In this document: piece after piece, positions 13,661-44,654 of the stretch | How the letters are laid out: each line of letters begins with the position of its first letter | How positions within the stretch are numbered: position 1 is the first letter of the stretch | Assembly: GCA_947625635.1 (NCBI GenBank) | Contig: CANQPA010000005.1 | Location: forward strand, 1 to 46,634 | Origin: an uncultured Bacilli bacterium | GTDB lineage: Bacteria > Bacillota_I > Bacilli_A > RF39 > UBA660 | DNA: 46,634 bases | Reading direction: 5' to 3' | Translations under genes and position numbers: made by a program | The notes under the pieces: generated by a model | The model's database searches: none | What the model was told of the DNA's origin: nothing | What the model saw: only the letters and a program-made list of their open reading frames with translations

Positions 13661-16264
13661 ATGAGGATAAAAATAACAATGTTTTTGATATTTATAGTTA
13701 TGTTATTTTCAATAAATATTGAATTTGTTAAAAGTAATACAATAACAGATTTCAATAATGGTACTGCTTCTGGAAGTGGTAGTGGAGCTTCTGGTGATTA
13801 CAATTGTATGGATGGTTTTAGAATTGTTGTTTTAGATTCTAACGGCAATAGAGTTTCTGGAACTCATGAAGCTAATATTATTAGTTATTCATCTTCAATT
13901 CAATATGGATCAGGTAAATATTATATAACATCATCCGCTGGAGTGAAAATAGAGTATGGACTAGGTAAGAAAACTTTATCTGCATTTAATAAACAAGCTG
14001 TTAGTTATGAAGATAAAAAATATAAAGCTATTAATGGAACTAATACTTTTAATTATTATGCCTCTTCATATGATTTTGGTGAGTTTTTATATGGAAGATG
14101 TTCAGGTGGAAATTCACGTGAGGGTCAAACCTTGAATGGTTGGTTGGGAGCGAATGATTATAAGAATTTGAAAGAATATGTTAGACAAACAGGTTATACT
14201 TGCTTTTCGGATAATCCAGCAGATAATTGTGCTCCTAATCAATATATACTTGTTGAGCCTTTAATGTTATTTGGAAGTAGTTTAGGAACACCTTACGAAC
14301 TTGCTCAAAAGTTATTCGATGGACATTATGAAACTGCTAAATCGCAAGGACTAAGCGCTATGTTTCGAAGAGCAGCAACTACCACGTTTGTTAATCAAAA
14401 TCCAAGTACATTTAATATAAAAACATTTAATGGAACTAACGATAACGAAGTGGCATTTAATAATGCAAAAGACGCTTTTTCAGGTGCTGGACTTGGAATA
14501 TATAGAGTTTCTGATATTAGTGGTTTTAAGGAAACTCCAAAAAAAGGAAAAGCAAAAATAAATAAGGTAAATGCAGCAGGCCAATTAATCCAGGGAAAAG
14601 CCGCAAAATTTAAAATATGTAAGAATGTTAATGGAACAAATTGTGTAAAAGTAGATGGGAAAGAAGAGTTTAGTTTAACTGGTACTAAAGAAATTGATCT
14701 TGATCTTGGTTGGTATTATTTAATAGAAACGTCTGCACCTTCAACAAGTGAAGTACAGTATCAAATAGCTACAGGTGTAGTACAAGAATATAATTCAAAT
14801 GGAAATTATGCAGAAAAAATACATTTTGAGATCAAATCTGGTCAAACAATTACAATAAAAGTAATAAACAAAACAGCATGTGAGGCAGATTTTGACATAG
14901 ATAGTAGTATAAGTAATAGGATAAAATTGTATCAAGAAAAATATCCAAAATTTAATAATTTGCTTGATTTTACAATAACAAATTCATATGAAGCTTGTAA
15001 AGTAAAAGCTTGTTCAAGACCTTTAGAAACATCTTGTTTAAGTGGAAAATACGGATCTGAAACATTCAATAAAGATAATGTTGCTTGTTACAATGAAACT
15101 ATAGATTTGGGTGGTAAAATTGCATATTGTCTAACAACTTTTGATTTAACAGATAAAATTAAATTAAATCCGTTTAATATAAAATCTGGACAGATGCCAA
15201 TACAAGTCCAAAATATAGAAGATGCAATTGCAACAGTAGGAGTATTAACAAAACAGTGTTTTGTATATGGAGGATATTCTGGAAAAATATATGCAGATTT
15301 TAAAAATTATGTAAGCGATGTAAAATTTAATAACAAATCGCTTAAGGTATTAAAAAATAATGAATTAGTGTCATTAAGTAAGTTAACTAATACACAATTT
15401 GAATTAAATGAAGAATCAACAAATTTTTATTCAGGAAATAAATCCATTCCATTTTATTTAAGTCCGGTATATGCACATAATGGAAGTGGAGAATATAGTG
15501 AAAATATATGTAATGATTGTAAGTTTTTAGGATACGGTGTAATAAGTAAATTAACTGGTACAGGACAATTCAAAATACCATTTGAAGTAGATTTTGCAAC
15601 CGGAAGTATATTTAAATCAAGTGATAAAGATAGCAAGGGAGTATGCTCTTCTCAATTAAACCGAGAGCTGTTAGAATGTGAAAATGGTTGTTCAAGCAGT
15701 GATAAACCAATAACGTCTGAGTATGATTTAAAATTAGAATTTAGAGTAATAGATACATATAATCCATTCCCAGGATATAGTGGAACAGGAAGGAATGTAG
15801 GAACGAATTGGTGTGAATATAATAGAAGAATAGATAGTACATTTGCTATAGAAATACTTCAAATAGCTCAAGGTATAGTTGACGTAAATTCATTAAATGA
15901 AGAGCAAAGAACTATGTATGATATCAATGGAGATGGTAAGATAACAGAAGAGGATGCGTCTTTAGCGCTACAGGAATTCAGTCATTCAAAAGACTCAACA
16001 ATATGTTCAAATGTTAATAAAAAAGTAACAGAGAATATAACGAATAGAATAAATAGCTATGGTGTAATCCCAAGTGATGAGACTAGAAAAGTTAAGGAAC
16101 CAAAATATGTGATAACTTTAACTCCGGAAATAATAAAAGAGATCAGAAAATATAATAAAAAGACAACATATAATGATTATACACTAAAGTGTGATAATGG
16201 AGAAAATTGTGAAAGTACATTTTTAAAAGAACCATATTTAAATATAGTGATAAATAATAATTAA
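13661..16264 (+). CDS. Large secreted surface protein with SpaA-like and dockerin-like segments
   Basis: An 867-residue protein with a signal-peptide-like N-terminus (about residues 1-25). The first third is Gly/Ser/Tyr-rich with scattered cysteines and no recognised fold. Around residues 296-405 lies a SpaA/Cna-B-like beta-sandwich: GKAKINKVNAAGQ at the start and YYLIETSAP near 350, where Lys and Glu are candidates for an intramolecular isopeptide bond. A Cys-rich region follows (CKVKACSRPLETSC). Near residues 735-770 is a dockerin-like EF-hand, DINGDGKITEEDASLAL. There is no LPxTG sorting motif or C-terminal hydrophobic anchor, so attachment must differ or the protein is released. Function is unknown; adhesion is a guess from the domains. 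ATG preceded by AGGTGATAAG. Confidence 0.75.
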   Translation: MRIKITMFLIFIVMLFSINIEFVKSNTITDFNNGTASGSGSGASGDYNCMDGFRIVVLDSNGNRVSGTHEANIISYSSSIQYGSGKYYITSSAGVKIEYGLGKKTLSAFNKQAVSYEDKKYKAINGTNTFNYYASSYDFGEFLYGRCSGGNSREGQTLNGWLGANDYKNLKEYVRQTGYTCFSDNPADNCAPNQYILVEPLMLFGSSLGTPYELAQKLFDGHYETAKSQGLSAMFRRAATTTFVNQNPSTFNIKTFNGTNDNEVAFNNAKDAFSGAGLGIYRVSDISGFKETPKKGKAKINKVNAAGQLIQGKAAKFKICKNVNGTNCVKVDGKEEFSLTGTKEIDLDLGWYYLIETSAPSTSEVQYQIATGVVQEYNSNGNYAEKIHFEIKSGQTITIKVINKTACEADFDIDSSISNRIKLYQEKYPKFNNLLDFTITNSYEACKVKACSRPLETSCLSGKYGSETFNKDNVACYNETIDLGGKIAYCLTTFDLTDKIKLNPFNIKSGQMPIQVQNIEDAIATVGVLTKQCFVYGGYSGKIYADFKNYVSDVKFNNKSLKVLKNNELVSLSKLTNTQFELNEESTNFYSGNKSIPFYLSPVYAHNGSGEYSENICNDCKFLGYGVISKLTGTGQFKIPFEVDFATGSIFKSSDKDSKGVCSSQLNRELLECENGCSSSDKPITSEYDLKLEFRVIDTYNPFPGYSGTGRNVGTNWCEYNRRIDSTFAIEILQIAQGIVDVNSLNEEQRTMYDINGDGKITEEDASLALQEFSHSKDSTICSNVNKKVTENITNRINSYGVIPSDETRKVKEPKYVITLTPEIIKEIRKYNKKTTYNDYTLKCDNGENCESTFLKEPYLNIVINNN

Positions 16265-17015: not shown

Positions 17016-17541
17016 TAAATTAGAAGAAATAATAAAAAAATGTAGGGGTAATGTACTAGCAATAGGATTAGATGATAAATTATTAAATATTTTTGATAAA
17101 AACCAGTATGTTAATTTATTTTCTATTAATTCTAACAAAAAAAATAATGAATTCAAAAAATCCAAGAAAAAAATAATAAATCGAGAAAAATCTATAAATA
17201 TTAAAAAGCTTAGGAAATATATAAATAAAAAATCTATAAATATTTTGATTTGTAATATGAATGAAATGATTGATTACTATAAATATTTTATAAAAGATAG
17301 TATATATTTGAATAATGGAGAAATATATATATATAGTACAAACGAAATAGATAAAGAGTTCATAATAAATAAATATAATAGATATAATGTTAAAATAACC
17401 AGTATAGATTATAAAAATGGTTATATAATTAAAGTTGACAATACTAATGGTAAAAATATATTTTTTAAAGATAAATTTTATTTTATTAAAGATTCTCTTT
17501 ATAATATAGCTGAATTTATCGGCAATATATTAGCAAGTTAA
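17008..17541 (+). CDS. Uncharacterised 177-residue protein coupled to tcdA
   Basis: I do not recognise the family. The N-terminus reads KCRGNVLAIGLDDKLLNIF, which looks like the first strand and glycine turn of a Rossmann-type fold, followed by a Lys/Asn-rich stretch (about 45-75), then INILICNMNEMIDYY and NGEIYIYSTNEID, which fit alternating strands and helices as in methyltransferase-like folds. No catalytic motif is evident. It overlaps tcdA by 8 bases and is translated from within its end, so the two are probably co-expressed. Composition is normal for the region. No signal peptide or membrane segment. Confidence 0.6.
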   Translation: MFNKLEEIIKKCRGNVLAIGLDDKLLNIFDKNQYVNLFSINSNKKNNEFKKSKKKIINREKSINIKKLRKYINKKSINILICNMNEMIDYYKYFIKDSIYLNNGEIYIYSTNEIDKEFIINKYNRYNVKITSIDYKNGYIIKVDNTNGKNIFFKDKFYFIKDSLYNIAEFIGNILAS

Positions 17542-17575
17542 AAGAAATGATTATTTAATCATTTCTTCTTTTTTT
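17542..17575 (+). terminator. Bidirectional terminator between convergent genes
   Basis: An 11-bp stem, AAGAAATGATT (17542-17552) with AATCATTTCTT (17557-17567), loop ATTT, followed on + by CTTTTTTT. The stop codon of the - strand CDP-alcohol phosphatidyltransferase gene (17559-17561) lies inside the hairpin. Confidence 0.75.
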
Positions 17576-18413
17576 GTTTAATATCAATTATTTCTTCATT
17601 TGTTTTATTATCGACTATGAGATTTAGAACATCCCTTAATTTTTGATATTGTTCTTTTATTGTAATTTTTTTCTGAATTTCTAAATTATTATTTATATTA
17701 ATAGTATTGTCATAATTTTTAACATTGACTAACTCATCATTTTTATCTGTATCAATATTGACATTAATGCTTTTTTTTGTATTATTTATTTTTTTTATTT
17801 CATTTTTATTATTATTTATGTAGCTACCAGCAGTCATTAGTTGAAATAAAAATGTTATAATTATAGAAATATTTGAAATAGCAAAGGAAAAATTATTTAT
17901 CGTTGAAAGATATCCAATAATTAAAGATAGGTTTAATGGCCATTGTTTAACTTTTCCTATCATTGTACTATTAATACTTAATTCTTTATATTTTAATTTA
18001 AATATCATATTTATGGATGAAATAATTAGCTCACCAATTAATATAAAAACATAATTAGGGTTCAAAAATAATAAATTAATACTAATAATTCCAGTAAAAA
18101 ATTTATCTGATAATTGATCAAGCATTTTTCCATATTCACTTGTGGTTTTAGTACTTCTAGAAATTTTGCCATCAAAATAATCTGTTAATGCGCCCATTCC
18201 AGCGATTATTCCCGAAGCAACAAATAGTGGTAATAATGAAGTTATAATAGCTGCTATAGATAGGATTAACGTTATAAAAGGTATTATTAATCTAGTAAAA
18301 GTTAACATATTGGCCAATTGATTTATTATTGTTTTTTTATTAAAAAATTCTTTAAACATTTTTTTAGTTCCAATTTTAAAATCCCTTAAATATTTTTTTA
18401 TTATATCCTTCAT
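17559..18413 (-). CDS. CDP-alcohol phosphatidyltransferase family protein (PgsA-like)
   Basis: A 284-residue integral membrane enzyme. The family motif is visible as DYFDGKISR then G-x3-D-x3-D in YGKMLDQLSDK; the common AR is SR here, the four catalytic/metal aspartates are kept. Four to six hydrophobic segments flank it. Such enzymes condense a CDP-diacylglycerol with an alcohol; phosphatidylglycerophosphate synthase is most likely but the alcohol is not fixed by the motif. The C-terminal 80 residues are an unusual Asn/Lys-rich soluble tail. I chose ATG 18413 because AAAGGTGG precedes it at good spacing; the frame opens at a TTG at 18437. Confidence 0.8.
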   Translation of the reverse strand: MKDIIKKYLRDFKIGTKKMFKEFFNKKTIINQLANMLTFTRLIIPFITLILSIAAIITSLLPLFVASGIIAGMGALTDYFDGKISRSTKTTSEYGKMLDQLSDKFFTGIISINLLFLNPNYVFILIGELIISSINMIFKLKYKELSINSTMIGKVKQWPLNLSLIIGYLSTINNFSFAISNISIIITFLFQLMTAGSYINNNKNEIKKINNTKKSINVNIDTDKNDELVNVKNYDNTININNNLEIQKKITIKEQYQKLRDVLNLIVDNKTNEEIIDIKQKKKK

Positions 18414-18443
18414 AGAATCCACCTTTACTTTCTCCAAAGTATT

Positions 18444-18471
18444 ATTTTAACATATTTAACTGAAAAGTCAA
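18444..18471 (-). promoter_or_regulatory. Promoter of the CDP-alcohol phosphatidyltransferase gene
   Basis: On the - strand, TTGACT (18471-18466), 16-base spacer, TAAAAT (18449-18444), with TGT before the -10 (extended). Confidence 0.6.
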
Positions 18472-18498
18472 CATATATAATATTATATTGAATATAAT

Positions 18499-18572
18499 TA
18501 ACTGTATTAGGTAACTAATACCGAGAAACAATAGTGTAGGCGAAAAAATCGTTTATTGTTTCTCTTTTTTTT
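18499..18572 (+). ncRNA. Candidate structured small RNA or leader upstream of spoIIP
   Basis: Two consecutive hairpins on the + strand. The first is GTATTAG (18504-18510), GTAA (a GNRA-type tetraloop), CTAATAC (18515-18521). Two bases later GAGAAACAATA (18523-18533) pairs perfectly over 11 bp with TATTGTTTCTC (18554-18564), with an inner CGA/TCG pairing in the long loop, and is followed by eight T residues (18565-18572). The second hairpin is a good + strand intrinsic terminator, yet no + strand gene lies upstream: the neighbour is divergent. TATAAT-like boxes at 18476-18481 and 18493-18498 could start a transcript of roughly 70-90 nt. It could be an independent small RNA or an attenuator in a long spoIIP leader. 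No known riboswitch class recognised. Confidence 0.45.
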
Positions 18573-18619
18573 CGACAAAAAATATTTACAGATTATTATA
18601 TATTATAATTGGTGATATT

Positions 18620-19570
18620 ATGAGAAAAAGATTTAAAAAAAAGAAAAAAATAAGCTTAAAAAAACTTATTTCAAGTTTAATATTTATATTCGTTTTCGCT
18701 TTTACACTATTTAATTTAAATAAAATAAAGATTATAGAATCTAATTCTAAATTTATTAATACTACTTTAAATAATAGTAATAATTACATCCATAATGATA
18801 CAAATATTTTTAATAAATTATTATTATATATAAACGAAAATGTTTTCAATTCACCAATATATTTTTTAAAATCTCAATTAAAATATTCAAACGATGATAG
18901 AGTATCGAAAAACGAAGAAGAGATAGATTTTTTCTATGAAAAAAATAATTTACCAATAATATACATTTATAATTCACATCAAGGAGAAACTTATTCATAT
19001 AAATATTTAGAAGAATATAATATAACACCTGATGTTCTCATGGCCGCTAACATGCTTAAAGATAAATTGGAAAATAAAGGTATTAACACATTAGTAGAAG
19101 AAAATGATATTTTAGAGTATATGAAAAAGAATAATTTGGATCATTCTGGAAGTTATATTGCCAGTAGGCACTTTTTAGAAAGTGTAATAAATAAATATAG
19201 TTCTATAAATTTATTTATAGATTTGCATAGAGATGCAGCCTCTCATGATGTCACATACACAAATATTAATGGAAAGGATTGCGCCAAAATATTATTTGTT
19301 ATCGGACTTGAATATTCAACATACGAAAATAATTTAGAAATAGCAACAAAATTAAATAATATAATATTAAATAAATATCCATCCCTTACTCGAGGTATTA
19401 TGAAAAAAGAAGGATATGGCGTTAATGGCGTTTATAATCAGGATTTATCTAATAATGTAATATTGATAGAAGTAGGTGGAAATGAAAATAATATAGAAGA
19501 AGTAAACAATACGTTAGATTTACTTTCAGAAGTAATAGGAGAATATTTAGATGAAAAAAAAGAAAGGTAA
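18620..19570 (+). CDS. spoIIP: Stage II sporulation protein P (SpoIIP)
   Basis: A 316-residue cell-wall hydrolase (amidase and endopeptidase) of the SpoIID-SpoIIP-SpoIIM engulfment machine, acting at the outer face of the mother-cell membrane. A Lys/Arg-rich start is followed by a membrane anchor (about residues 15-33). The catalytic domain shows IYIYNSHQGETYS, then LFIDLHRDAASHD and VILIEVGGNENNIEE, which carry the His/Glu/His zinc-ligand pattern of Amidase_3-like SpoIIP. ATG preceded by GGTGAT at three bases. The protein is short because the linker between anchor and catalytic domain is reduced. It overlaps the next gene by 20 bases. Confidence 0.92.
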   Translation: MRKRFKKKKKISLKKLISSLIFIFVFAFTLFNLNKIKIIESNSKFINTTLNNSNNYIHNDTNIFNKLLLYINENVFNSPIYFLKSQLKYSNDDRVSKNEEEIDFFYEKNNLPIIYIYNSHQGETYSYKYLEEYNITPDVLMAANMLKDKLENKGINTLVEENDILEYMKKNNLDHSGSYIASRHFLESVINKYSSINLFIDLHRDAASHDVTYTNINGKDCAKILFVIGLEYSTYENNLEIATKLNNIILNKYPSLTRGIMKKEGYGVNGVYNQDLSNNVILIEVGGNENNIEEVNNTLDLLSEVIGEYLDEKKER

Positions 19571-43877: not shown

Positions 43878-44654
43878 TTACGTTATATTATTTTTCATAT
43901 TATTAAGAGCATTTTTTTCTAATCTAGATATTTGAGCTTGAGAAATTCCTATTTCATTTGCTAATTCCATTTGTGTCTTTCCTATTATATATCTTTCAAT
44001 GATAATATATTTTTCTTTATCTTTTAATTTTTTTATTGCCTCTTTTAATGCTACGTGATCATCAATTGACTTCATCTTTGTATTTTTATCCTCAATCTGA
44101 TCTGATAAATAAATTGTGTCTCCTCCATCATTATAAATTGGTTCAAAGATGCTAATTGTATCTTTCATACTATCTAATGCATTACTAACTTCATATTCAG
44201 TTAAATTAAGTTTTTTTGCAATATCACTAATAGTTGGTTCTTTACTGAGTACATTAGTTAATTCCTCCTTTGCAATTAATGCATGATATGCAATATCTTT
44301 GATACTTCTAGCTACTCTAATACTATTATTATCCCTTAAATACCTTTTAACTTCACCAAGTATCATTGGGACGGCATACGTAGAAAATTTTACATCAAAA
44401 TTAAGATCAAAATTTTCAATTGCTTTTATTAATCCAATGCATCCTACCTGAAATAGATCGTCCATATTATCACATCTATTGTTGTATTTTTTCAATATAC
44501 TTAGTACTAATTTTAGGTTACCATTCACAAGTTCATTTTTTGCTAATTTATCACCTTTTTTATATTTTTTGAACAAGTCTAACATTTCTTCATTATTTAA
44601 TACTTTTAAATTCGCAGTATTCACGCCACAAATTTCTACTTTATGACGTGCCAT
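43878..44654 (-). CDS. sigG: RNA polymerase sporulation sigma factor SigG
   Basis: A 258-residue sigma-70 family factor controlling late forespore transcription. The N-terminus MARHKVEICGVNTANLKVL matches the SigG-specific MSRNKVEICGVDTSKLPVL pattern, including the CsfB-sensitive region. Region 2 reads DDLFQVGCIGLIKAIENFDL, FSTYAVPMILGEVKRYLRDN and SIRVARSIKDIAYHAL; region 4 contains KTQMELANEIGISQAQISRLEKNAL. Length equals that of B. subtilis SigG (260). spoIIGA and sigE, its usual neighbours, are not adjacent. A candidate sigma-G promoter lies upstream, consistent with positive autoregulation. AAAGGAG precedes the ATG. Confidence 0.96.
   Translation of the reverse strand: MARHKVEICGVNTANLKVLNNEEMLDLFKKYKKGDKLAKNELVNGNLKLVLSILKKYNNRCDNMDDLFQVGCIGLIKAIENFDLNFDVKFSTYAVPMILGEVKRYLRDNNSIRVARSIKDIAYHALIAKEELTNVLSKEPTISDIAKKLNLTEYEVSNALDSMKDTISIFEPIYNDGGDTIYLSDQIEDKNTKMKSIDDHVALKEAIKKLKDKEKYIIIERYIIGKTQMELANEIGISQAQISRLEKNALNNMKNNIT

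Follow-up and report, generated by a model that had tools for sequence, protein, structure and literature searches.

Positions 18504-18572 (+ strand) of the window, i.e. the 46,634-nt stretch of DNA analysed here, most likely belong to an independent non-coding RNA gene whose product of ~60-75 nt would be transcribed by sigma-E RNA polymerase in the mother cell. We put the probability of this reading at about 0.7. Judged from the sequence, a new family of sporulation-controlled small RNAs is the best reading of the element; we infer its transcription, sigma-E as the driver and an action in trans. An independent small RNA of ~70-90 nt had been one of two options in the first-pass annotation, and it gained support from a conserved promoter of its own, covarying stems, a terminator and loci with other downstream genes.

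The predicted RNA starts with hairpin 1 (18504-18521, + strand), in which 18504-18510 pair with 18515-18521 (7 bp) around a GTAA loop. Hairpin 2 (18523-18564, + strand) is the terminator stem and carries the UA-GUGU core; its 11 bp join 18523-18533 to 18554-18564. Eight T (18565-18572, + strand) complete the intrinsic terminator and mark the predicted 3′ end. Both hairpins and the T run were thus present as first annotated, but the second hairpin, described as perfect, was not a simple one. Above the 11 bp it had a 6 × 1 internal loop (18534-18539 GTGTAG versus T18553) and then a 4-bp stem, and this inserted upper stem is special to the window genus. The GTAA loop, initially named as a GNRA cap, does close hairpin 1 in the window but was not kept in relatives, among which loop 1 differed in sequence and length; the cap is incidental. 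The folding energy of the element was −21.8 kcal/mol, compared to −10.5 ± 2.7 kcal/mol for shuffles (z = −4.1), and 1 of 200 shuffles folded as well. A simple terminator scan of the window listed no terminator at the element, probably because of the loop-length limit of the scan. The nearest + strand gene end upstream lies at 17541 and the gene directly upstream is on the − strand, in agreement with the original remark that a + strand terminator stands here with no + strand gene before it.

A spoIIP protein search defined a genus set of 16 genomes (that of the window and 15 others). The element stood before spoIIP, always at the same place, in all 15 genus genomes whose contig extended upstream, and the covariance search proposed in the first-pass annotation found the stems kept in each of these 15, with one strong copy per genome. 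Every aligned copy had the T run, and double changes preserved pairing in 11 of 22 pairs. Identity within the genus was 79% in the −10 region of the promoter, 74% in hairpin 1 and 78-79% in the arms of hairpin 2. It was lower in the apical part of hairpin 2 (44%), the promoter spacer (43%) and the flank on the pgsA side (45%); the promoter and leader of spoIIP were conserved too (69-70%).

Outside the genus, model R1 gave four clear copies in other genera. Weaker R1 matches (L039-L042, L063-L067) were judged to be chance, such a promoter being absent or the match lying inside a gene. Model R2 placed copies in 24 genomes of the family, and R3 in 64 of 386 sampled family genomes, covering 36 of 150 genera with one match each; R3 includes the promoter columns, so its matches are biased towards the promoter. 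Under strict filters, none was found outside the family in a class sample (395 genomes) or a phylum sample (245 genomes). The E-values are rough and the genomes compared are drafts. Most sampled family genomes, several of them with spoIIP, gave no match to the RNA. In consequence, either sporulation does not generally require the RNA or divergent copies escape the search; its absence from other genera may reflect loss or insufficient sensitivity.

The 61 copies outside the window genus provided the main evidence for an RNA structure. Compensatory double changes, which had been named as the signal to look for in both stems, occurred at 16 of 16 base pairs, that is, at 6/6 modelled pairs of hairpin 1 and 10/10 of hairpin 2. 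In the alignment of these copies, which was fitted to the model and therefore favours structure, 97.9% of the cells were paired and the covariation score was 0.508 versus 0.205 for shuffled alignments (0 of 500 shuffles reached it); slid and shuffled controls were far lower. The form found outside the genus was shorter: hairpin 1, a linker of 2-9 nt, a second hairpin that is typically GGAAAC-U-CGUA-GUGU-UACG-GUUUCC, and a T run. The apical loop of its hairpin 2 read UA-G-N-R-Y-UA in nearly all copies, with GUGU, GGAU, GUGC or GCGU at the centre. By comparison, the window genus appears to have retained the UA-GUGU core and to have gained the extra stem beside it. We also considered an operator palindrome in place of an RNA stem, which was ruled out because the loop varies in length and the arms covary. 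A hidden small protein was likewise ruled out by the absence of a conserved open reading frame: 18 of 35 copies had no closed ATG frame, and in the others the longest was 10 aa. As first annotated, the element matched no known class, since Rfam 15 gave no match above the gathering threshold in the window. Below threshold, a plastid 3′ UTR hairpin scored best and reached half of the threshold set for it.

The promoter assigned to the small RNA (18471-18498, + strand) consists of a −35 element ACATATAT (18471-18478), a spacer of 12 nt and a −10 element AATATAAT (18491-18498). The general layout of the block was NMATAWWW, 12 nt, CATATAAT, and the block ended 5-6 nt before hairpin 1. ATA occupied the fixed −35 place before CATATAAT in 53 of 76 copies (~5 expected), and also in 28 of the 35 copies found by models without promoter columns. 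A profile of this promoter ranked it third best of all window positions on both strands; applied to spoIVA in 13 genus genomes, it picked the same place upstream of the gene, with the same layout, in 12 (shuffle p from 0.002 to 0.11 each). spoIVA is a classic sigma-E gene in B. subtilis. In the genome, sigma-E and SpoIIGA are encoded side by side; the helix of this sigma-E that reads the −35 element has Gln, and that of sigma-K, which is encoded too, has Arg. In B. subtilis, sigma-E promoters have 12 ± 1 bp between the 8-position −35 element and the −10 element (PMC517825). In C. difficile, an ATA in the −35 element marks sigma-E and AC marks sigma-K, while −10 boxes of the CATATAAT kind are common to both (PMC3789822). 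Judged by motif only, and in an AT-rich genome, the promoter of the small RNA has the sigma-E layout. The suggestion of a sporulation role made in the first-pass annotation gains support through this promoter and not through the neighbouring spoIIP.

We must also note several observations on the sporulation genes. A strict sigma-E pattern proved too degenerate for use: it matched 66 times genome-wide, its reversed control matched 52 times, and it led to no sporulation gene. Taken as a further sigma-E reference gene, spoIIIAA gave only weak partial matches below the family cut-off in the 16 genus genomes. Its lack of a convincing match, while spoIVA, sigE, spoIIGA and spoIIP are present, indicates a reduced sporulation gene set. 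The window itself contains a sigma factor gene (43878-44648, − strand) whose start resembles sigma-G (MARHKVEICGVNTANL...) and in which Pfam regions 2, 3 and 4 are present. The order RF39, to which the genus probably belongs, has been predicted to sporulate (PMC10868615).

The same small RNA might instead be made by sigma-A in growing cells, with CATATAAT serving as a sigma-A −10 box and ATA as a UP-like element or regulator site. Many copies hold a perfect TATAAT within the −10 element, so that sigma-A could read the promoter too, and growing cells commonly make small RNAs. Nevertheless, we consider this origin unlikely. A TTGACA-like box (at least 4 of 6 matches) at 16-18 nt was found in 9 of 76 copies, where ~12.6 were expected, and was no commoner than in shuffles; ATA is held at one exact place, TATAAT is preceded by C/A-A and not by TG, and the same layout precedes spoIVA.

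The commonest neighbour of the RNA was the divergent gene upstream, found at 48 of 76 loci, which encodes a pgsA-type CDP-alcohol phosphatidyltransferase (17559-18437 in the window, − strand; PF01066, E = 3.9e-17). Its promoter is of the sigma-A type (18444-18471, − strand; TTGACT-N16-TAAAAT with TG before the −10 box) and lies back to back with that of the small RNA; this sigma-A-type promoter was kept in most of the genus. Further upstream, the gene at 13661-16264 (+ strand) encodes a protein of 867 aa that contains cysteine, is secreted or located at the surface and may have a Cna-B-like part. The element might act through interference between the two promoters. Their −35 boxes abut in the window, and a GTCAA box occurred near the −35 element of the RNA at 15 of 36 pgsA loci of other genera (3.7% expected). 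However, 28 of 76 loci, a few of them cut by contig ends, showed no pgsA-type neighbour while the hairpins and the loop were kept. Promoter competition cannot explain loci that lack the pgsA-type gene. Moreover, hairpin 1 covaries, though termination does not need it. Interference as the whole explanation is thus improbable; an extra effect through competition between the small-RNA promoter and the pgsA-type promoter is possible.

Downstream of the RNA, spoIIP (18620-19570, + strand; PF07454, E = 4e-53) is the neighbour in the window genus only, in 15 of 15 genomes as compared to 0 of 61 copies elsewhere. The latter were most often followed by a protein with SH3_3 and glucosaminidase domains (at least 18 loci), and otherwise by a 155-aa protein without a Pfam match, murG, a signal-peptidase-like gene, mutL and others; at ~9 loci outside the genus the downstream gene was on the opposite strand. 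With such variety, the RNA does not belong to spoIIP. The SH3_3 plus glucosaminidase protein is secreted, has 460-480 aa and lies directly 3′ of the RNA in many genera (e.g. L072, 1626-3058). In the window, spoIIP has a separate promoter (18571-18600, + strand; TTCGACA-N16/17-TATTATATATTA) that begins within the last letters of the T run; its TT(C)GACA box was conserved, 42-44 nt before the ATG start codon, in 15 of 15 genus genomes. This promoter is unlike the sigma-E layout before spoIVA, and a different sigma factor may control spoIIP. The other option of the first-pass annotation, a riboswitch or premature terminator that would gate spoIIP, fits the order of folded element, terminator and gene in 15/15 genus genomes, but is very improbable given that spoIIP's own promoter leaves the RNA outside its leader, that the downstream gene changes or even turns around among relatives, and that no Rfam class was matched.

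For the independent sigma-E-type RNA gene, we propose the following mechanism. Sigma-E RNA polymerase would start in the mother cell at ~18504, a predicted site ~6 nt 3′ of the −10 box, and stop at the T run, which would yield an RNA of ~65-70 nt that consists almost wholly of the two hairpins; its ends would be protected by hairpin 1 on the 5′ side and by the terminator on the other. Most of the conserved unpaired nucleotides fall in the UA-GNRY-UA apical loop of hairpin 2, so that the RNA would most probably act through this loop, recognised in the mother cell by a protein or by a kissing RNA. Seed pairing through the loop of hairpin 1 or the linker is unlikely, as both vary. A far-reaching and rather doubtful extension would be a family-wide mother-cell RNA, in a spore-forming lineage with reduced genomes, with a loop that a dedicated partner, protein or RNA, recognises; such an RNA would reset membrane-lipid synthesis (in view of the pgsA-type neighbour) or cell-wall remodelling during engulfment.

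Structural conservation of the RNA extends to roughly one in four of the genera sampled from an uncultured family, and its covariance model and promoter make it a defined target. If confirmed, it would show that sigma-E controls a conserved non-coding gene in this lineage. The analysis also corrects the reading as a spoIIP attenuator, which comes naturally but is probably wrong. The element combined the features of an intergenic small RNA under a sporulation sigma factor: a promoter recognised by its motif, its own intrinsic terminator and no conserved coding frame. The −10 box of sigma-F promoters has GG and that of sigma-G promoters CATNNTA; CATATAAT contains neither, so the promoter is not of the CsfG kind. 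As cited in PMC9147052, CsfG is a sporulation-specific small RNA found in many species and made under sigma-F and sigma-G in the forespore (Marchais et al. 2011). The present RNA resembles it as a sporulation-linked small RNA conserved over many species with unknown function, and differs, when set against that description, in its sigma-E promoter layout. A sigma-E-dependent small RNA from the yocG-yocH intergenic region of B. subtilis was reported by Silvaggi et al. (as cited in PMC9147052). What defines the RNA presented here is covariation across dozens of genera; it is set apart from the yocG-yocH RNA by description, not by sequence. We know of no published link between that RNA and this lineage. 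As far as PMC9147052 describes them, only a few small RNAs of the mother cell have been identified, most of them without a known function; among them, SurC of B. subtilis depends on sigma-K. SurC is thus similar in being a mother-cell small RNA, whereas sigma-K promoters carry AC in the −35 element (PMC3789822) and that of the present RNA carries ATA.
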